Below are positions 15,658-28,487 of a stretch of 64,000 bases of DNA, piece after piece. The notes below the pieces were generated by a model that worked only from the letters and a program-made list of their open reading frames with translations, was not told where the DNA came from and ran no database searches. Location of the stretch: contig NZ_APNH01000003.1 in the NCBI RefSeq assembly GCF_040361275.1, positions 62,001 to 126,000 of the forward strand. Reading direction: 5' to 3'. Position numbers and translations under genes: made by a program. Source of the DNA: Salinisphaera sp. T31B1 (GTDB taxonomy: Bacteria; Pseudomonadota; Gammaproteobacteria; Nevskiales; Salinisphaeraceae). Within the stretch, counting starts at the first letter, position 1; every line of letters begins with the position of its first letter.

Positions 15658-16290
15658 TCAGAGTGCGACCACGCCGGTGCGTATGGCCAGCCGGGTCAGA
15701 TCGGCTGTGCCGCTCGCGCCCAGCTTGGTCCGCAGTCGGGTCGTGTGATTCGCGACCGTCTTGGGGCTGAGAAACAGCTCCTCGGCAATGGCATTCACGC
15801 TCGCACCGGAAGCCAGCAATCGGAAGATCTCGAATTCGCGTGACGACAGGCAGGCCAGAGGATTGGCGGCGTCGGGGCCGGCCTCGTCGGCCAGTTCGGC
15901 GTCGATATAGCGTTGTCCGGTGGCCACCGCTCGCACGGCGTTCACGAGTACCTCGGACACCGCACGCTTGCTGATATAGCCGGTCGCCCCCGCGGTCAGC
16001 GCGCGGCGGACGAATATCTGTTCTTCGTGTACGGAGAACACGAGTACACGCACGCCCGGGTAGCGCGAGAGAATACGCTTTGTCGCCTCGATACCGCTCA
16101 TGCCCGGCAGCGACAGGTCCATCACGATGACGTGGATATCCAGGTCCCGGCACGCCGCGTAGGCGCGTTCGCCGCTGTCGGCTTCACCGACCACCTGGAT
16201 ATCGTCTGCGAGCTTGAGCAGCCGGCCATAGCCGGCCCGTACGACGGCGTGGTCATCGACCAGAAGCACGCGGATGGGCGTGGTCTGCAT
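15658..16290 (-). CDS. NarL/LuxR-type response regulator, PedR2-like
   Basis: 210 aa. The receiver has the acidic pair in LLVDDHAVVRAGY, the phosphorylation Asp in VIVMDLSLPGMSG and Lys in YISKRAV. A LuxR-type helix-turn-helix fills the C-terminus (SSREFEIFRLLASGASVNAIAEELFLSPKTVANH, written in part). The start at 16290 follows a GGAGGA ribosome site; the longer frame to 16428 has no support. It is the first gene of a likely operon with the kinase, the TonB receptor and the PepSY protein. Confidence 0.88.
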   Translation of the reverse strand: MQTTPIRVLLVDDHAVVRAGYGRLLKLADDIQVVGEADSGERAYAACRDLDIHVIVMDLSLPGMSGIEATKRILSRYPGVRVLVFSVHEEQIFVRRALTAGATGYISKRAVSEVLVNAVRAVATGQRYIDAELADEAGPDAANPLACLSSREFEIFRLLASGASVNAIAEELFLSPKTVANHTTRLRTKLGASGTADLTRLAIRTGVVAL

Positions 16291-16430
16291 GAAGTCCTCC
16301 TGGTGCCGGCGGTGGATCGGCTCGGTCGGATGCCGTGACGATTGGCTATGGACGCCTCGGCTTCGATCATCGTGACCCACGACAATAGCGCATGCCAAAG
16401 CCGGCGTGCGTGCCGACCGGCAGCCCACCC

Positions 16431-16501: not shown

Positions 16502-18013
16502 CTACAACGATACCGTCACGGTCTTGGTTTCGGTGTAGTTGTTGAGCACCTGTGCGCCCATTTCCCGACCCCAGCCGGACTGCTTGAATCCGCCGAACGG
16601 CAGGGCCGCATCGAAGATGTTGTAGCAGTTGACCCAGACCGTGCCGGCGCGCAGCTTGTTGGCCAGCTTGTGAGCACGACCGATATCCTGCGTCCACACG
16701 CCGGATGCCAGCCCGAAGACCGTATCGTTGGCGCGCTTGATCAATTCGGCGTCCAGGTCCGAGAACCGGGTCGCGGTGACGACCGGACCGAAGATCTCTT
16801 CCTGATAGACCTTCATGTCGTCCTTGACGTCAACGAGCACCGTCGGCTTGACGAAATAGCCGTCGCCGTCTCCCTTCTCGCCGCCCGCCGCTGCGCGGGC
16901 ACCCTGGCTCTTGCCGGATTCGAGATACCCCGTCACGCGGTCGAACTGGGTACGCGAGACCAGCGGCCCCATCTGGGTTTCCGGATCCAGGCCCGGGCCC
17001 AGCTTGATGTTGCGAGCGAACTCGGACACACCCTCGACCACCTCATCGTAGATCTTGTCGTGTACGAAAAGCCGCGAACCGGCGGCACAGCACTGGCCAT
17101 GATTGAAGAAGATGGCGTTGGCCGCCCCCGGAATCGCCTTTTCCAGGTCGGCGTCGTCGAGGATGATGTTCGGCGACTTGCCGCCCAGTTCCAGCGACAC
17201 TTTCTTGAGGTTGCCCTTGGCGGCGTCGACGATCAGACGGCCGACTTCGGTGGACCCGGTGAAGGCGATCTTATCGACCATCGGGTGTGCGGCAAGCGGG
17301 GCACCGGCCTCTTCGCCGAAACCGGTGATGATGTTGACGACACCGTCCGGTACGCCAGCCTCCTGCATGATCTCGGCCAACTTGAGACCTGACAACGGCG
17401 TCTCTTCGGCCAGTTTCATGACGATGGTGTTACCGGTCGCCAGCGCCGGTGCCAGCTTCCAGGCTGCCATCAGCAGCGGGAAATTCCAGGGGATGATCTG
17501 GCCACACACGCCCACCGGCTCGCGCCGGGTATAGGCATGCCATTCGGCGCCGGGCGCGTACGGCACGGTCGGACTGATCAACTCGCCGTTGAGCTTGGTC
17601 GCCCAGCCCGCCATATAACGAAACATCTCGGCGGCCAGCGGTACATCGGCGGCACGTGCAATCGAGATCGGCTTGCCGTTGTCCAGCGACTCGAGCTGCG
17701 CCAGTTCTTCCTGATAATGCATGATCAGGTCGCCGATCTTCCAGACGATCTGCTGGCGCTCGGCGGGAGACATGCGGGTCCAGGGCCCGTCGTCGAATGC
17801 CTTGCGGGCGGCCTTCACCGCCTTGTCGACGTCGGCCTTGCCGGCCGACTGGGCATGCGCGACGACCTGATCGTTGGATGGATTGTAGACATCGAACGTT
17901 TCGCCCGACTCGGCGGCGACCCACTGGCCGCCGATGAGCATCTTGCGCGGCGTGTCGATGAATTGCTTGACGCTGGGTTCCAGCGCGACTTCAGAAGCGG
18001 CTACTGCACACAT
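16502..18013 (-). CDS. NAD-dependent aldehyde dehydrogenase, PedI/ExaC-like
   Basis: 503 aa, the usual length for the ALDH superfamily. The general base Glu lies in LELGGKSPN (about residue 275), the catalytic Cys in FFNHGQCCAAGSR (about residue 309), the NAD-binding region is PWNFPL and FTGSTEVG, and the C-terminal PFGGFKQSGWGRE is intact. It would oxidise the aldehyde made by a quinoprotein alcohol dehydrogenase to the acid, as PedI and ExaC do. A sigma-54 promoter and an activator-like palindrome lie upstream, and the divergent neighbour is a sigma-54 activator. The substrate range cannot be told from sequence. Confidence 0.9.
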   Translation of the reverse strand: MCAVAASEVALEPSVKQFIDTPRKMLIGGQWVAAESGETFDVYNPSNDQVVAHAQSAGKADVDKAVKAARKAFDDGPWTRMSPAERQQIVWKIGDLIMHYQEELAQLESLDNGKPISIARAADVPLAAEMFRYMAGWATKLNGELISPTVPYAPGAEWHAYTRREPVGVCGQIIPWNFPLLMAAWKLAPALATGNTIVMKLAEETPLSGLKLAEIMQEAGVPDGVVNIITGFGEEAGAPLAAHPMVDKIAFTGSTEVGRLIVDAAKGNLKKVSLELGGKSPNIILDDADLEKAIPGAANAIFFNHGQCCAAGSRLFVHDKIYDEVVEGVSEFARNIKLGPGLDPETQMGPLVSRTQFDRVTGYLESGKSQGARAAAGGEKGDGDGYFVKPTVLVDVKDDMKVYQEEIFGPVVTATRFSDLDAELIKRANDTVFGLASGVWTQDIGRAHKLANKLRAGTVWVNCYNIFDAALPFGGFKQSGWGREMGAQVLNNYTETKTVTVSL

Positions 18014-18130
18014 GAGTTGTTGACTCCTCCGATTCGTTTAACAAAACACGCACGCGCTCACGCTCGTCGTGTTGTCGTCGTTGTCGAGCCACCGCATACC
18101 CCTTGGAGCGCGGTGCCTGTCGTGTCTCAA

Positions 18131-18146
18131 CGCAAGGATCAGGCCA
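18131..18146 (-). promoter_or_regulatory. Sigma-54 promoter (-24/-12) for aldehyde dehydrogenase
   Basis: On the minus strand the sequence TGGCCTGATCCTTGCG fits the sigma-54 consensus (TGGCACG-N4-TTGCA) with invariant GG and GC separated by exactly ten bases. The -12 element TTGC is complete. Transcription would start near 18120, giving a leader of about 107 bases before the ATG at 18013. The AcoR-like sigma-54 activator gene lies next door. Confidence 0.7.
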
Positions 18147-18198
18147 CGCGCCACGGCGCTCGTTCTACCGTGTTTTTTGGTTGTTATCCGTCCGGATC

Positions 18199-18211
18199 AC
18201 AGTGTCACTGT
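18199..18211. promoter_or_regulatory. Perfect 13-base palindrome, candidate activator binding site
   Basis: ACAGTGTCACTGT is a perfect inverted repeat with a one-base centre. It lies about 85 bases upstream of the predicted sigma-54 start site of the aldehyde dehydrogenase gene, the usual place for an enhancer-binding protein site, and between that gene and the activator gene at 18392. Binding by that activator is inferred. Confidence 0.5.
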
Positions 18212-18391
18212 CACGGAACTGGCGCAACCGTGTTGCATCGCTGCGTCGGCGCCTGTCCGGACCAGTTGTGCGCGGTGTGCAAACCTGCTACAAAAATCCA
18301 AAGGTTCGTATGCCCGCCTCTTAAGCGGGACGGCCCAGAAAAAGAAAAAATGACGGAGCGGCTCGACCGCACCGCATCAGGAGGAGACACC

Positions 18392-20356
<1,965 letters not shown>

Positions 20357-20405: not shown

Positions 20406-20421
20406 TGGCACGACTCCTGCC
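20406..20421 (+). promoter_or_regulatory. Sigma-54 promoter (-24/-12) for pqqBCD
   Basis: TGGCACGACTCCTGCC matches the sigma-54 -24 element TGGCACG completely, and GG and GC are exactly ten bases apart; the -12 box CTGC differs from TTGC in one base. Transcription would start near 20432, about 29 bases before the pqqB ATG. Confidence 0.78.
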
Positions 20422-20460: not shown

Positions 20461-21372
20461 ATGTATATCAGGGTTCTGGGATCGGCCGCGGGCGGCGGCT
20501 TTCCGCAATGGAACACCAACGTCGGCCTGAACCGGGCTTTCCACGAGGGCGCGACCCGAGCTCGCGCCCGTACCCAGTCGTCGATCGCGGTCAGCGCCGA
20601 TGGCGAACGCTGGTTGCTGGTCAACGCGTCGCCCGATGTCCGGCAGCAGATTCTGGATTTCCCCGCGCTGCGCCCGGCGCCGGAAACACGCGGTACCGGT
20701 ATCGGCGCCGTGCTGCTCATGGACAGCCAGATCGATCACGCCACCGGGCTGATCATTCTGCGCGAGGGCGATACGCTGCCCGTCTGGTCGACGCGCCCCG
20801 TCTACGAAGACCTCACTACCGGTCTGCCGCTGTTCAACGTGCTCTCACACTACTGTGGCGTGGACTGGCACGAGATCGATACCGCGGCCGATCATTTCGC
20901 AATCGACGGCGTACCGGGGCTGTCGTTTCGTGCGGTCGAGCTGTCCTCGGCCGCGCCGCCGTATTCGCCGCACCGGGGCGACCCGCATCCCGGCGACAAC
21001 ATTGGCCTGGTCGTGACCGACGACGCCACCGGCGGCACGCTGTTCTATGCGCCCGGCCTCGGCGCGCCGGACGACACCATCGCCGCCGTCGCAAGGCAAT
21101 CGGATTGCCTGCTCGTGGACGGCACCTTCTTCACCGAAACCGAGATGATCGACCAGGGCGTGGGCGTGAAACCTGCGGCAGCGATGGGCCATCTGCCGCA
21201 GTCCGGCGAAAACGGCATGCTCGCCTGGCTGGCGAACTTTCCCGACAAGCGCCGGGTGCTCATCCATATCAACAACACCAATCCCATCCTCGACCCGGAC
21301 TCGCCGGAGCGTGCCACGGTCGAAAACGCCGGGGTGGAAGTCGCCTATGACGGTATGGAAATAAAGCTATGA
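20461..21372 (+). CDS. pqqB: Pyrroloquinoline quinone biosynthesis protein B
   Basis: 303 aa, the normal length. This metallo-beta-lactamase-fold protein is thought to hydroxylate the PqqA-derived intermediate. The start [18 protein letters not shown] is the family's hallmark N-terminus, and the metal-site region [13 protein letters not shown] and the late [10 protein letters not shown] are present. The ATG follows the site CAGGGGCAGG. A sigma-54 promoter lies 40 bases upstream. It overlaps pqqC by four bases. Confidence 0.97.
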
Positions 21373-22115
21373 GCGTTGCCAACGACGGTCAAAAGCCCTG
21401 GTCGCGTGACGAATTCGAAGCCCGCCTTCGGGCCAGGGGCGCGCGCTATCACATCCATCATCCCTACCACCGGATGATGCACGAAGGTCGCTGCACGCCG
21501 GATCAGATTCGTGGCTGGGTGCTCAACCGCTACTACTACCAGGTCTGTATTCCCATCAAGGATGCCAACGTGCTCGCCAACTGCCCGGACCCGGCCGCTC
21601 GCCAGCTCTGGGTTCAGCGCATCATCGACCACGACGGCGCGCCGGGCGAAACCGGCGGCATCGAAGCCTGGCTGATGCTGGCCGAAGCCACCGGCCTGGA
21701 TCGCGCGCGCGTCGCCAACCTCACTGACCTGCTGCCGGGCGTGCGTTTCGCCGTCGATGCCTATGTAAACTTCGCCCGGCGCGCGTCCTGGCAGGAAGCC
21801 GCCTGCTCGTCGCTCACCGAACTGTTCGCGCCGGAAATCCATCAGCAACGCCTGACCGGCTGGCCCGATCACTACCCGTGGATCGATGATTCCGGCCTGA
21901 GCTACTTCCGCAAGCGTCTGTCGGAAGCACGGCGCGATGTCGAACACGGCCTGCGGGTCACGCTGGGCCATTTCACCACCCGCGCCGAGCAGGAATACGC
22001 GCTATCGATTCTGCAGTTCAAGCTCGACGTGCTCTGGAGCATGCTCGATGCCATGTGGATGGCTTATGTCGAAGACCGGCCGCCGTATCACAGCTGCCCG
22101 GAGCCGCAGACATGA
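21369..22115 (+). CDS. pqqC: PQQ synthase (pyrroloquinoline-quinone synthase)
   Basis: 248 aa, typical length. PqqC is the cofactor-free oxidase that performs the last ring-forming and eight-electron oxidation step. Conserved segments include [11 protein letters not shown] near residue 32, [11 protein letters not shown], the stretch around RIIDHDG, and [13 protein letters not shown] near the C-terminus. It starts in the pqqB stop and ends overlapping pqqD, so BCD are translationally coupled. Confidence 0.97.
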
Positions 22116-22402
22116 GCGCCGGTGCCCCCGTTTCCGATAGCGCCGTGCCACAGATCACCCGTGGCCACCGCCTGCAGTTCGAACCGGCCCAGGACTGCCA
22201 CGTCCTGCTCTACCCGGAAGGCATGATCACGCTCAACGACAGCGCGGCCGAAATCCTGCAGCGCTGCGATGGCCAGCGGTCCGTACAGGCGATCTGCAAC
22301 GATCTGTCGGCCGCATTCGACGGGGCCGATGTTACGGCCGATGTGCACGCGTTCCTGAAGCTGGCAGCATCGCACGGCTGGATCGTGTTCGATCAGACGT
22401 AG
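22112..22402 (+). CDS. pqqD: PQQ biosynthesis peptide chaperone PqqD
   Basis: 96 aa. PqqD binds the PqqA peptide and presents it to the radical SAM enzyme PqqE. The family signature is visible in [23 protein letters not shown]. It begins with the ATGA overlap at the pqqC stop, which supports this start over the upstream one in the same frame. pqqE does not follow directly as in many clusters; it lies 1.7 kb away on the other strand. Confidence 0.95.
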
Positions 22403-24063: not shown

Positions 24064-25218
24064 TTAATTCGGGCCGTTTTGCCGGTGCAGCCGCTTCGAA
24101 TTCTTGGGATTGCGAAACACGATCGGCTGGGCGGTGGGCGCTTCGACAGGCTGTGCGTTCGCGCGCTCGACGGCGTCGGTCACAAGATGGTGCTCGGGCG
24201 ATTTCGCACACACGGGATCGGTGGCGTACATGTCGCCGGTGAGCATATAGGCCTGGCAGCGGCAGCCGCCGTAGTCCTTGGTTTTTTCCGAGCAGCTGCG
24301 ACAGGGTTCTTTCATCCAGTCGTAGCCGCGGAAATGATTGAAGGCGGGGGATTCGGCCCAGATCCACTCGATGTCGTGATCGACCACGTTCGGAAATTCC
24401 AGGCCGGGTAGCTGGCGCGCGGCATGGCAGGGCAGGGCCACGCCGTCCGGGGCGACGGTGAGGAAGATATCGCCCCAGCCGCTCATGCAGGCCTTGGGCC
24501 GGTCTTCGTAGTAGTCCGGCACCACGAAATACAGCTTCATCGCGCCGCCGCGCTCGCGGTATTCGGTGGTGACCCGTTCGGCATGTTCAAGCTGTTCGCG
24601 GGTGGGCATGAGCGCGTCGCGGTTGTGCCAGGCCCAGCCGTAGTACTGGGTGTTGGCCAGTTCTACATAGTCGGCGTCGAGCGCTTCGGCCATGGCGATG
24701 ATCTCTTCGATATCGTCGATGTTCTTTCGGTGCAGCACGATGTTGAGCACCATCGGATAACCGTGGCGCTTGATCGAGCGGGCCATGTCCTTCTTCTTCT
24801 CGAAGCTGTCGGTGCCGCCGAGGAAATTGTTCATTTCGGCGTTGCTGGCCTGGAAGCTGATCTGGATATGATCGAGCCCGGCCTCGGCCAGACGGGCGAC
24901 CCGGTCATCGTCCATGCCGATGCCGGAAGTGATCAGATTGGAGTAGAAACCCAGCCGCCGGCCTTCGGCCACGATCTCTTCGAGGTCCTGCCGGACCAGC
25001 GGCTCACCGCCGGACAGGCCCAACTGGGCCGCCCCCATCGCGCGGGCCTGGCGCAGAACTTTCTTCCAGTCTTCGGTGCCGATCTCGCGACCGATCCGGG
25101 CCATTTCGGTGGGATTGCTGCAATACGGACACTGCAACGGACAGGCGTAGGTCAGCTCGGCCAGCAACCAGAGCGGTCGGGCCGGGGTAACGCCATCGTG
25201 TCGCGTGGGCAGATCCAT
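24064..25218 (-). CDS. pqqE: PqqA peptide cyclase, radical SAM enzyme
   Basis: 384 aa. PqqE joins Glu and Tyr of PqqA by a carbon-carbon bond. The radical SAM cluster motif CPLQCPYC lies near residue 25-32 after [13 protein letters not shown]. The SPASM domain in the C-terminal half has the auxiliary-cluster cysteines: [31 protein letters not shown] and DPVCAKS. The start at 25218 gives the normal N-terminus; no strong ribosome site is seen there, and a terminator-like hairpin lies 38 bases upstream, so expression may be kept below that of pqqA. Confidence 0.96.
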
Positions 25219-25250
25219 GGTATTGCTACTGACAGCTGGACGGACTGAGC

Positions 25251-25299: not shown

Positions 25300-25377
25300 T
25301 CAGCGGTTGTTGACGTACATCGTGATTTCGAAACCCAGACGCAGGTCATGGGCCTTCGGGGTGGTCCACTGTTTCAT
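25300..25377 (-). CDS. pqqA: PQQ precursor peptide PqqA
   Basis: A 25-residue peptide that is the backbone of PQQ. It begins MKQWTTPK and contains the core FEITMYVNNR, in which Glu17 and Tyr21 are separated by three residues, exactly the spacing cross-linked by PqqE. The ribosome site AAGGAGAT lies a few bases upstream. A sigma-54 promoter precedes it at 25422-25437 and a strong hairpin follows. The gene is too short for usual ORF-length cutoffs and is easily missed. Confidence 0.95.
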   Translation of the reverse strand: MKQWTTPKAHDLRLGFEITMYVNNR

Positions 25378-25421: not shown

Positions 25422-25437
25422 TGCACGCACCGTGCCA
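25422..25437 (-). promoter_or_regulatory. Sigma-54 promoter (-24/-12) for pqqA
   Basis: On the minus strand TGGCACGGTGCGTGCA matches the sigma-54 consensus TGGCACG-N4-TTGCA in all but one base of the boxes, with GG and GC ten bases apart. The start site would be near 25411, about 34 bases before the pqqA ATG. Confidence 0.82.
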
Positions 25438-25546
25438 GACGCCGACCGTTCAGCGAATGCGGTTAACTCGTTGATAATTCGATCACTCGCGCGCCTTCTC
25501 GGCAGGTTGGCGGTCGGAGAGCGGGTTATCGGCGGCTAGTGGCGCT

Positions 25547-25578
25547 TATTGGCCAGCCAGTTCGGCCACTATTGGCCA
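25547..25578. repeat. Tandem TATTGGCCA sites upstream of pqqA
   Basis: TATTGGCCA occurs at 25547-25555 and 25570-25578, 23 bases apart, about two helical turns. They lie 135-165 bases upstream of the predicted pqqA start, a normal distance for enhancer-binding proteins, and just ahead of the NtrC-type two-component genes. A binding role is inferred. Confidence 0.5.
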
Positions 25579-25683
25579 ATCTCATACTGCCGTTCGCCGT
25601 CCAATGGGGCGCCTCGAACTGTTCGAGGCGCGCCGCGTGCAAACGCCATCGCGTGAAACCGCAACAGGCCCTAGACTCCGGGA

Positions 25684-27111
25684 ATGCCTTTTTCCCGCAC
25701 GCATTCGCTCAAGAGCCTGATCCGGCGCTACCAGCTGGCGTTTCTGCTTATCCTGACCGCCGCGGCTGGCCTGGGCGGGTTGTGGTCGATCTTCTGGCAG
25801 TCCGGCTATCAGAGTTCGCTGCGTCTCAATGGCCTGCTGATCGAGGCACAGGCCGTACGGGGGGATCTGTATCGCCAGATCAAGGCGCTGGACGAAACCA
25901 AGGGCGCGGGCCCAGGCGACGACTACTGGCAACGGCTGTATCGTATCGACGAGCATTTCTATCGCATGCGCCATTTTGCCGATACAGCGGCCGAACGGGA
26001 CACGATCGCACGCATGGAGGCGGCCTACGGGCTGCTGCTGGCTGCAATGAACCGGGTTGTCACCAACCCTGCCGATCCGAATGCGCGCGAAACAACGCTG
26101 GGTCCGTGGCAGGCCGGCGATTTCGAGACTGCCTACAGCGAGCTTACCGCCCAGGTGGCCGCCCAGCGTAACGCGCTGTCTCAGCGGATGCAGTTATGGA
26201 ACCGGCTGGCGCCGTGGCTGGCCTGGTTGCCGCTGGCGCTCGGCGTCGCGGTGGCCATCTGGCTCAACCGACGTTTCGTGCGCGGGTTCGTGCGCCCCCT
26301 GGAGCAATTGGTCGCCGACACCGCCGCACTGGGCCGCGGCCAGTTGTCCTACCGGCTGACCCGACGTGGTGTGGATGAAGTAGCCCAGCTCGCCACCACG
26401 ATCAACGCCATGGCCGCCGAACTGGAGCACAACCGCCAGGCACTGGTCGAGCGCGAACGCCAGGCCGCACTCGGGGCACTGGTTCCGGTGATCGCCCACA
26501 ACATCCGCAATCCGCTGGCGGGTATCCGCGCCAATGCACAGATGCTCGATCGCCACGCCACCATCGAGGATATCGAGGAGACCGGTGAAGACATCATCGA
26601 TGCAGCCGATCGACTCGAACGCTGGTTGGGCGCGCTGCTGGCCTATCTTCACCCGCTGCAGTTGACCCGTGAGCCGCACGCCCTGGACACGATCGTGGAT
26701 GCCGCGGTAGCCGCCCTCGGCGCTCGCGTGTCGGCACACGCGGTACGCCTCAGACGCACCCGGTCGAATGCACAGGTCGCTGTCGATGCGCCGCTGCTCG
26801 AACAGGCATTGCACGGGCTGATCGCCAATGCGCTCGAAGCTTCACCCGAAGGCGCCGTGCTCGGGCTGGAAACCGACGTCGTCGACGAGTGCGTGCAGTT
26901 GCTGATCGAAGATCAGGGGCCGGGCATGGCCACGACGGTGGATCTGCACGCCGAAGCGCCCATGGCCAGCACCAAGCGCCGCGGCACCGGACTTGGCATT
27001 CCCTTCGCGTTCAAGATCATCAAGGCCCACGACGGCGAGCTCGCCTTCGAATCGATGAGCGAGGGTGGAACGCGTGTGCGTGTACGACTGCCCGCATGGA
27101 AGACGACATGA
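25684..27111 (+). CDS. Membrane sensor histidine kinase, NtrB-like output
   Basis: 475 aa. Two membrane helices (about 20-38 and 181-198) frame a periplasmic helical domain of about 140 residues. HAMP follows (about 199-252), then the phosphoacceptor box ALVPVIAHNIRNPLAGIRANA with His near residue 278, and an HATPase domain with LIANALEASPEG, DQGPGM and GTGLGIPFAFKII. HNIRNP is a variant of the common HEIRNP. It overlaps the response regulator gene by four bases, so the two form a pair. The signal is unknown; location beside pqqA suggests control of PQQ or alcohol oxidation. Confidence 0.87.
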   Translation: MPFSRTHSLKSLIRRYQLAFLLILTAAAGLGGLWSIFWQSGYQSSLRLNGLLIEAQAVRGDLYRQIKALDETKGAGPGDDYWQRLYRIDEHFYRMRHFADTAAERDTIARMEAAYGLLLAAMNRVVTNPADPNARETTLGPWQAGDFETAYSELTAQVAAQRNALSQRMQLWNRLAPWLAWLPLALGVAVAIWLNRRFVRGFVRPLEQLVADTAALGRGQLSYRLTRRGVDEVAQLATTINAMAAELEHNRQALVERERQAALGALVPVIAHNIRNPLAGIRANAQMLDRHATIEDIEETGEDIIDAADRLERWLGALLAYLHPLQLTREPHALDTIVDAAVAALGARVSAHAVRLRRTRSNAQVAVDAPLLEQALHGLIANALEASPEGAVLGLETDVVDECVQLLIEDQGPGMATTVDLHAEAPMASTKRRGTGLGIPFAFKIIKAHDGELAFESMSEGGTRVRVRLPAWKTT

Positions 27112-28487
27112 AAGACGTGCCGCATATCCTGGTGCTTGAGGATGAGCGAGCGCTCGCACGGGCTATCGACCGGCGTCTGCGCCGCGATGGCTATACGGTA
27201 GCCGTTTGCGAGAATCTCGCCAATGCGCGCCTGGCCGCGGGTCGGCGCCGGCCGGATCTGGCCGTGCTGGATCTGCGACTGCCCGATGGTGATGGGCTGG
27301 CCTTTCTGGAATGGCTGCGCGCCGACATCGTCGATGCGCCCGCGATCGTGATGACCGCCTTCGGCGAGCTCGACGACGCGATCGCGGCCATGCGTCTCGG
27401 CGCGGTGGATTTCCTCAAAAAGCCGCTCGATCTGGACGCGCTGTCGCGTATCGCCAGCGATGCCCTGCAGCCTGAGAGCCCGGTTTCATCCTCTGCGGCG
27501 TCGGGCGCCGAGTCGCCGGTCGGGCCGACGATCGTCGGCGAAAGCCCCGAGATGGTGGCCTTGCGGCGGCAGATCGAGCGCATCGCCGCGCTCGGCGCCG
27601 GGGAGGCACCGCCCAACGTACTCATCGTAGGCGAGACCGGAACGGGCAAGGACCTGCTCGCGCGCTATCTGCATGCGCAGTCGCCGCGCGCGGCCGCCGA
27701 GTTCGTCCAGGTCGACTGTGCCGCGTTGCCCCGCGATCTGATCGAGGCCGAGCTGTTCGGCCACGAAAAAGGCGCGTTCACCAACGCGCATCGTGCCCGG
27801 CGCGGGTTGCTGGCCGCCGCTGGTCAGGGCTCGGCGTTTCTCAACGAAATCGGCGAGTTGCCGCTTGCCCTGCAGGCCAAACTTTTGAACGCCCTGGAAT
27901 CACGTACCGTGCGCGAAATCGGTAGCGATACCGAGCGTCCCATCGACGCGTGGTTCATCGCCGCGACACATCGTGATCTGGCCGAGATGATGGCGGCCGG
28001 CGATTTTCGCCAGGATCTGTATTACCGGTTGAATGTTCTGACCCTGCATGTGCCGCCGCTGCGCGAGCGAGGCGAGGACGTGATCGCGCTCGCTCGTCAT
28101 TTCGTGGCGAGTATCGCTGTCCGCTATGACCGGGCTGTCCCGACCTTGACCGCCGATGCCGAGCAAGCGCTCAGACGTCACGACTGGCCGGGCAACGTGC
28201 GGGAATTGCGGCATGTACTGGAACGGGCGGTGCTCGTGCATGCCGATACGCGGATCGAGAGCACGCATCTGGGTATCGAGCGACGTGATCGCAGGCTGCC
28301 GGCGGTCGACACCGCGTCCATGAAGTCGGCCCCTGTCACGACGCTGGCCGACAGCGAACGCGAATTGATCCGACAAACACTGGCGGCTACCGGTGACAAT
28401 GTGTCCGAGACTGCGCGACGACTCGGGCTGAGCCGTGGCGCGCTGCGTTATCGGCTGGACAAGTACGATATCGAGGCCGGACGCTGA
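27108..28487 (+). CDS. NtrC-family response regulator with degenerate sigma-54 contact loop
   Basis: 459 aa. The receiver has acidic residues in VLEDERALA, the phosphorylation Asp55 and Lys in FLKKPLD. The AAA+ domain has Walker A GETGTGKD (175-182). The loop that touches sigma-54 reads GAFTNA instead of GAFTGA (222-227), and Walker B reads FLNEIGE with Asn246 in place of Asp. FIS-type helix-turn-helix at about 428-450. These changes suggest that it cannot work as a normal sigma-54 activator and may repress or use sigma-70, as some NtrC relatives do. Its start lies in the kinase stop; an ATG at 27096 is an alternative. Confidence 0.86.
   Translation: MKDVPHILVLEDERALARAIDRRLRRDGYTVAVCENLANARLAAGRRRPDLAVLDLRLPDGDGLAFLEWLRADIVDAPAIVMTAFGELDDAIAAMRLGAVDFLKKPLDLDALSRIASDALQPESPVSSSAASGAESPVGPTIVGESPEMVALRRQIERIAALGAGEAPPNVLIVGETGTGKDLLARYLHAQSPRAAAEFVQVDCAALPRDLIEAELFGHEKGAFTNAHRARRGLLAAAGQGSAFLNEIGELPLALQAKLLNALESRTVREIGSDTERPIDAWFIAATHRDLAEMMAAGDFRQDLYYRLNVLTLHVPPLRERGEDVIALARHFVASIAVRYDRAVPTLTADAEQALRRHDWPGNVRELRHVLERAVLVHADTRIESTHLGIERRDRRLPAVDTASMKSAPVTTLADSERELIRQTLAATGDNVSETARRLGLSRGALRYRLDKYDIEAGR

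Follow-up and report, generated by a model that had tools for sequence, protein, structure and literature searches.

A putative two-component, sigma-54-dependent switch upstream of the PQQ precursor gene pqqA in Salinisphaera and other Gammaproteobacteria

The intergenic region between pqqA and a divergent kinase-regulator gene pair in Salinisphaera probably acts, with a likelihood that we put at roughly three in four, as a sigma-54 switch devoted to PQQ precursor synthesis, one that a two-component system operates with assistance from IHF. In this model the kinase, a membrane protein that senses through a periplasmic four-helix bundle, would phosphorylate the NtrC-type regulator encoded with it, and the regulator would bind two 16-bp dyads of the form TGGYY-N6-RRCCA placed two helical turns apart, as the co-occurrence of regulator and dyads suggests. 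The AAA+ ring of the regulator would assemble on the dyads and, with an IHF bend helping in many species, would reach a sigma-54 holoenzyme about 140 bp downstream; this contact would turn on pqqA, here together with pqqE. In many Gammaproteobacteria pqqA would be controlled by members of this regulator clade through a like arrangement of sites, even if the regulator gene lies far from pqqA. Sigma-54 would govern the entire pathway in this Salinisphaera clade, because matching promoters before pqqBCD and before an aldehyde dehydrogenase gene are probably worked by another activator, which is AcoR-like. We infer the signal, phosphorylation, binding and activation from sequence features and from their conservation, co-occurrence and spacing.

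The window, a stretch of 64,000 nucleotides, belongs to a genome of 4.36 Mb and contains the PQQ genes in two blocks. The precursor peptide gene pqqA (MKQWTTPKAHDLRLGFEITMYVNNR; 25300..25377, minus strand) was recognized from its translation and by NCBIfam TIGR02107 (37.3 bits, cut-off 20), and pqqE follows it downstream on the same strand (24064..25227, start uncertain; TIGR02109, 553 bits, cut-off 381). The separate block of pqqB, pqqC and pqqD (20461..22402, plus strand; TIGR02108, TIGR02111 and TIGR03859, all above cut-off) stands behind the gene of the AcoR-like sigma-54 activator (about 18353..20356, plus strand, start uncertain), whose GAFTGA and FLDEI motifs are intact. A LuxR-type response regulator gene (15658-16428) also lies in the cluster, and no site was assigned to its product. 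Divergent from pqqA, across 306 intergenic bases, are the genes for a sensor histidine kinase (25684..27111, plus strand), with HAMP, HisKA and HATPase domains identified by Pfam, and for a response regulator (27108..28487, plus strand) that overlaps it by four bases and carries the REC (PF00072), sigma-54 AAA+ (PF00158, 201.8 bits, cut-off 20.2) and Fis-type HTH (PF02954) domains of an NtrC-type protein. Kinase loci of this type were also found in S. orenii, S. halophila and S. shabanensis. The kinase mRNA is likely leaderless, since the kinase ATG lies only 6 nt (6-7 nt in the relatives read) past a conserved -10-like TAGACT (25672..25677, plus strand). A near-identical block of the CAACAGGCCCTAGA type, corresponding to 25650-25683 (plus strand) of the window, also precedes lgt-like and rmuC-like genes in the same genome.

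The candidate promoter and enhancer elements were all located within this intergenic region, pqqA being read from the minus strand. The -24/-12 element for pqqA(-pqqE), TGGCACGGTGCGTGCA (25422..25437, minus strand), spans -60 to -45 relative to the pqqA ATG and has GG at -24 and GC at -12, ten bases apart, in the context TGGCAC-N5-TTGCA. It has one mismatch to TGGCACG-N4-TTGCA and is the sole match with at most one mismatch in the window (0.43 expected from shuffling). A purine-rich ribosome site lies between the element and pqqA. Farther upstream are two 16-bp dyads, TGGCGCTTATTGGCCA (25540..25555) and CGGCCACTATTGGCCA (25563..25578), the latter being the best match genome-wide to TGGCCANTANTGGCCA. 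The dyads are 23 bp apart, start at -201 and -178 relative to the ATG, and have as half of each the sequence TATTGGCCA, whose only two exact copies in the window (25547-25555 and 25570-25578; 0.14 expected) are those in the dyads. Between enhancer and promoter, at -99 from the ATG, is a perfect match to the IHF consensus TATCAACGAGTTA (25464..25476, minus strand); the match, WATCAANNNNTTR, is the only exact one in the window (0.32 expected) and is a candidate IHF site. Of 20,000 first-order Markov shufflings of the 306 intergenic bases, one produced a dyad pair and 13 produced a comparable -24/-12 site.

Most of the original prediction for this region agreed with these results. A sigma-54 box one base off consensus was indeed found ending 45 bases before pqqA, the two copies of TATTGGCCA are exact and 23 bases apart as described, and the divergent genes do encode an NtrC-type pair. 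The upstream sites had been placed 135-165 bases before the start; this holds for the expected transcription start, which by arithmetic from the -12 element lies about 128-166 bases from the sites, but not for the ATG, from which the dyads lie 163-201 bases. An inverted repeat, TAGTGGC (25537-25543)/GCCACTA (25565-25571), had also been proposed; both arms are present, but they merely overlap the dyads, which are what recurs in relatives, and the repeat was rejected as a binding unit. The IHF consensus was absent from that prediction.

Both kinds of element were searched for in the genome that contains the window (G000). The promoter form of the genus, CTGGCAYGG-N2-SRTGCA, has three exact matches in G000. 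One is at pqqA. The other two, which serve as a positive control for the form, precede genes identified by eye from their translations, one for a nitrate-transport-type binding protein and one for a TorF-like porin, with a PII (GlnB/GlnK-type) gene beside the latter; judging by these products, both fit textbook sigma-54 genes. A wider regulon search of G000 found a single dyad site with at most one mismatch genome-wide, located at pqqA, and at up to two mismatches the counts equalled the control.

The elements are conserved within Salinisphaera. Among 14 genomes of the genus, pqqE was found in 10 and the regulator in 7, and the pqqA upstream region could be compared in six genomes with the pair (the window, G003, G004, G008, G011 and G012), the contig of G006 ending too early. 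The -24/-12 site is present in all six and the dyad pair, at 22-23 bp spacing, in five; G004 retains a single clear dyad plus looser copies, without the 22-23 bp pair. In the three pqqA-bearing genomes of the genus without the kinase-regulator pair (G001, G009 and G013), neither the -24/-12 site nor the dyads were found (0/3 for each), and these genomes instead share GGCGTA[CG]AGT[AG] near pqqA. The conservation in relatives that had been proposed as a check is thus seen, and together with the loci of other families described below it supports a predicted sigma-54 promoter for pqqA with upstream activator sites. However, G011 and G012 are near-identical, so the independent cases in the genus number about five, and presence and absence map to one change on the PqqE tree (96/91 support), so the correlation within the genus is a single event. 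The stronger point is the conservation of the motifs amid otherwise diverged intergenic DNA. Two other features of this sample were observed. First, pqqE in G006 is fragmented at a contig end (L050/L100, G006:C65; several tblastn segments), from either an assembly break or decay. Secondly, a Salinisphaera-type locus occurs in a record titled Endozoicomonas sp. G2_2 (L069), a record name that looks wrong.

The regulator belongs to a clade that extends well beyond the genus. A scan of 84,980 species with the Salinisphaera kinase alignment identified only Salinisphaera-type loci and one weak match, because its seed peptides were overly specific; the wider clade emerged with the regulator alignment. 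With that alignment, 32 matches at 453-900 bits, 30 of them outside the genus, were obtained from 369 genomes of the class, the next match scoring 397 bits. The 36 regulator rows were monophyletic (support 100/99) in a tree with 11 other activators. No match was found in plasmid records at E 1e-100. In the 30 regulator-bearing regions outside the genus, nine genomes have pqqA and the kinase gene adjacent and divergent, and two further genomes have pqqA elsewhere in the region. All nine of these intergenic regions contain tandem 16-bp dyads, mostly TGGTT-N6-AACCA, and the general form is TGGYY-N6-RRCCA occurring twice at 22-23 bp. When 549,380 bases, made up of the window, four loci of the genus and these 30 regions, were scanned for such pairs with two mismatches allowed, 15 were found and every one lies upstream of a pqqA; the reversed control yielded none. 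These include L183 and L193, where the kinase does not adjoin pqqA.

Dyads owned by this regulator would be expected before pqqA even where the regulator gene is unlinked, and this prediction was tested with a 22-bp pattern in the whole genomes of 30 regulator-positive organisms and of 13 pqqE-positive, order-level organisms in which no close regulator match was seen. All eight exact matches among those listed lie upstream of pqqA, in seven genomes, all regulator-positive. Among the matches listed, at least 20 of the 30 regulator-positive genomes outside the genus have the dyad pair at pqqA; they represent the family of the window and ten others, and the count does not take in the matches in G204, G243, G299, G397 and G414. 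The pair is on a different contig from the regulator in nine genomes (G095, G149, G216, G223, G280, G295, G328, G383 and G423). Matches away from pqqA were found in G174, G203 and G393, and the pattern search of the G092 and G179 genomes found none. Matches with up to two mismatches are about as numerous genome-wide as in the control, and thus only exact matches or those beside pqqA carry weight.

A -24/-12 match is present in 18 of the 21 wider-clade pqqA loci that were chosen for having the pair beside pqqA (ten genomes without a placed pair lie outside this set), and the other three have no -12 GC; by genome, 17 of the at least 20 dyad-bearing genomes outside the genus also have a sigma-54 site. 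Over 23 upstream regions measured, the distance from the first dyad to the promoter ranges from 124 to 170 bp. Matches to the IHF consensus with at most one mismatch lie in the spacer of 12 of the 23, where 2.7 would be expected, and these are putative IHF sites. In the pqqA upstream regions of regulator-less genomes, neither dyads (0/9, even at four mismatches) nor a -24/-12 site (0/9) was found, the nine controls being six order-level and three genus regions, with 11 of 17 control regions left out for want of a recognizable pqqA.

The dyads' owner is likely the regulator encoded at 27108 rather than the activator encoded at 18392, both of which the original prediction had named for footprinting. 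The first of these stands as the likely owner because the predicted sigma-54 targets of the second, pqqB and the aldehyde dehydrogenase gene, are without dyads. Recognition helix and site also vary in step in the sequences compared. The recognition helix in Salinisphaera is SRGALRYRL (six genus rows) and goes with TGGCC half-sites; elsewhere it is mostly TRMALRYRM, and TRM-type in nearly all, and goes with TGGTT half-sites. Position 4 is C in all 18 half-sites from Salinisphaera, and 66 of the 80 half-sites from elsewhere have T there, counts taken over a hand-picked set of rows.

The foremost alternative, which we consider unlikely, is that the AcoR-like activator drives the sigma-54 promoter of pqqA and that the regulator of the pair is a modulator or repressor acting on the dyads. 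Several results favour it. The AcoR-like protein has intact GAFTGA and FLDEI motifs and its gene accompanies the pair in all seven genus genomes, and the regulator of the pair has D, D, N or H, and N at four conserved AAA+ positions. In addition, conserved sigma-54-like sites stand beside the AcoR-like gene. One, TGGCACGACTCCTGCC (20406..20421, plus strand), lies 55 bases before pqqB, and its general form, TGGCACGA[CG]TCCTGCC, starts 54-59 bases upstream in all six pair-carrying genomes and is absent from both genomes without the pair. The other, TGGCCTGATCCTTGCG (within 18013-18353, minus strand), precedes the aldehyde dehydrogenase gene (16502-18013) and has counterparts of the form TGGCCTG[AG][AT][CT]CTTGC[GT] in all five genomes read, the window included. 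Both sites are probably worked by the adjacent AcoR-like activator. However, no dyads were found at pqqB or at the aldehyde dehydrogenase gene. Also, of the 30 regions outside the genus that carry the regulator, only L201 gave an AcoR-like homologue by tblastn (47% over 630 aa), and elsewhere the matches were confined to the AAA+ domain of the regulator itself; yet dyads precede pqqA in at least 20 such genomes, of which 17 also have a sigma-54 site.

The regulator is a variant at its ATPase site, which differs from the canonical GKE, switch asparagine and Walker B DE. In all seven genus regulators the Walker A glutamate is replaced by Asp (GKD), the switch asparagine by Asp and the Walker B aspartate by Asn (NE), and the GAFTGA loop reads GAFTNA in six and GAFTHA in one; the F and T of the loop and the RxDxxxR motif are retained. 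In the window the residues are D182, D203, N226 and N246. In the wider clade GKD and the switch Asp are found in all 25 loci and the Walker B NE in 3 of 25. The fifth position of the loop, for the 25 of 28 loci that the motif pattern captured (three were missed), is S in 11, N in 9, G in 2, H in 2 and T in 1. Another NtrC-type activator of the genome has GAFTDA (L137, G000:C3:186068-186568), so position 5 varies beyond the clade; in this comparison the pattern captured five of the other seven G000 activators.

The altered Walker A+1 residue, switch asparagine, GAFTGA position 5 and Walker B, together with the PspF D107A result, make the regulator's fitness as an activator uncertain. For PspF, ATPase Vmax was 39.5 for the wild type, 22.3 for E43D, 1.5 for N64Q and 0.23 for D107A (PMC3419264); D107A, which nearly abolishes ATPase activity, is the Walker B site altered here. 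In addition, NorR G266N escapes repression by the GAF domain and still forms open complexes (PMC2941729). On these data the residue exchange could tune or compensate activity and not abolish it.

The same residues enter a second alternative, which we regard as improbable and less likely than the first, that the regulator acts at pqqA without the usual sigma-54 mode, through a sigma-70-type promoter or by repression, and that the -24/-12 match is incidental. The altered GAFTGA and Walker B motifs and the three of 21 loci without a proper -12 are consistent with this, and the NtrC proteins of Caulobacter and Rhodobacter, which lack GAFTGA, provide a precedent (PMC10274813). Against it are the -24/-12 site in six of six genus genomes and in 18 of 21 other loci at a stable distance, the enrichment of the IHF consensus in the spacer, the retained F and T of the loop, and NorR G266N, which has the same loop change and still activates sigma-54 (PMC2941729). 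Chance, or unrelated conserved intergenic repeats with no regulator behind them, was already disfavoured and is very improbable: matches with up to two mismatches are common genome-wide, but 15 of 15 local pairs and eight of eight exact matches among those listed lie at pqqA, with 0 of 9 in controls.

A bolder form of the proposed switch is put forward only tentatively. It holds that this is an undescribed, widespread Gammaproteobacterial two-component system whose sole target is pqqA, reached through the two-dyad enhancer, and whose rebuilt AAA+ site (Glu to Asp in Walker A, Asn to Asp at the switch, GAFT[N/S/H/T]A and sometimes Asn in Walker B) changes how sigma-54 is driven. For example, the activator might escape the auto-inhibition that is usual in such proteins, with phosphorylation-dependent assembly on the tandem dyads as the main means of control.

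The sensor of the kinase, modelled alone from 25 rows, is predicted to be a periplasmic four-helix bundle (pLDDT 86), which two predicted transmembrane helices flank and which fold matches also indicate; the model of the entire kinase was poor (pLDDT 62.5). Structural neighbours of the sensor model include HK9 (3va9, Z 16.3), PcaY and KinB of P. aeruginosa (Z 13.7), scores that helical bundles reach easily. KinB, which pairs with the NtrC-type regulator AlgB, likewise has a periplasmic four-helix bundle; however, the sequence identity is 12%, such bundles match widely and HK9 scores higher. Foldseek with the sensor model gave no match at E <0.001, and a Pfam search of the sensor gave no convincing family.

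NtrB-NtrC has a kinase, a regulator of the REC-AAA+-Fis type, tandem dyads and a -24/-12 promoter, and resembles the system described here. The present system differs in its sensor, in its dyad sequence, in having PQQ and not nitrogen as its target and in its non-canonical AAA+ residues. AgmR of Pseudomonas is a LuxR-type regulator and not an enhancer-binding protein, which distinguishes it from the NtrC-type regulator here. AgmR does regulate PQQ synthesis, and control of pqqA through AgmR, or indirectly through CbrAB, is what the papers found describe (PMC3480352). CbrA-CbrB at crcZ in Pseudomonas likewise combines a two-component pair, RpoN, IHF and an upstream activating sequence; however, it exerts global carbon control, and its effect on pqqABCDE is mostly indirect according to the same paper (PMC3480352). 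NorR at norVW of E. coli is also a sigma-54 activator with several upstream enhancer sites, and N at GAFTGA position 5 is active in it (G266N; PMC2941729), but it is a single-component NO sensor with a GAF domain and another target, and its N is a laboratory mutation. Among the matches listed in a literature search whose scope took in little of the subscription literature, no description of NtrC-type or sigma-54 control of pqqA was found. No such system for pqqA appeared in the passages or term searches of PMC12997753, PMC3480352, PMC12403871, PMC9088363, PMC12316311 and PMC11996626, and a term search of the ped-cluster review (PMC12997753) did not return RpoN or enhancer. The NtrC-type pair, IHF and -24/-12 promoter are of a known kind, such a system for pqqA appears to be new, and the variant ATPase site may be novel too. 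If the proposed switch is correct, many genera would offer a regulator open to direct testing, together with a kinase that could be screened for its signal. In addition, the site code would let the regulon be inferred from genomes, and the clade, as a natural variant of the ATPase site of sigma-54 activators, could show how the motor tolerates change.

The PQQ dehydrogenases of marine and soil bacteria, lanthanide enzymes among them, oxidize alcohols and sugars. The PQQ alcohol dehydrogenase genes were considered as extra targets, and in 12 loci from three genomes no dyad pair at 22-23 bp was found; single dyad-like sites occur in seven of the 12, and there are two weak -24/-12-like matches (L087 and L088). 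A second AcoR-like activator, 44% identical to the first, is encoded beside a PQQ alcohol dehydrogenase gene (G000:C1:1453314-1457312), and the same neighbourhood is present in G012 (C34). Outside the genus, the kinase-regulator pair lies in L184 near a PQQ alcohol dehydrogenase gene, which scores just below the family cut-off, and near a PQQ-associated beta-propeller gene in L183. The number of pqqA genes also varies. Tandem pqqA copies stand behind one dyad pair in G149 and G223, a second pqqA-like peptide is found in G095, and two pqqA loci, each with its own dyad pair, occur in G247 and G223 (loci L204, L222, L246 and L221/L202).
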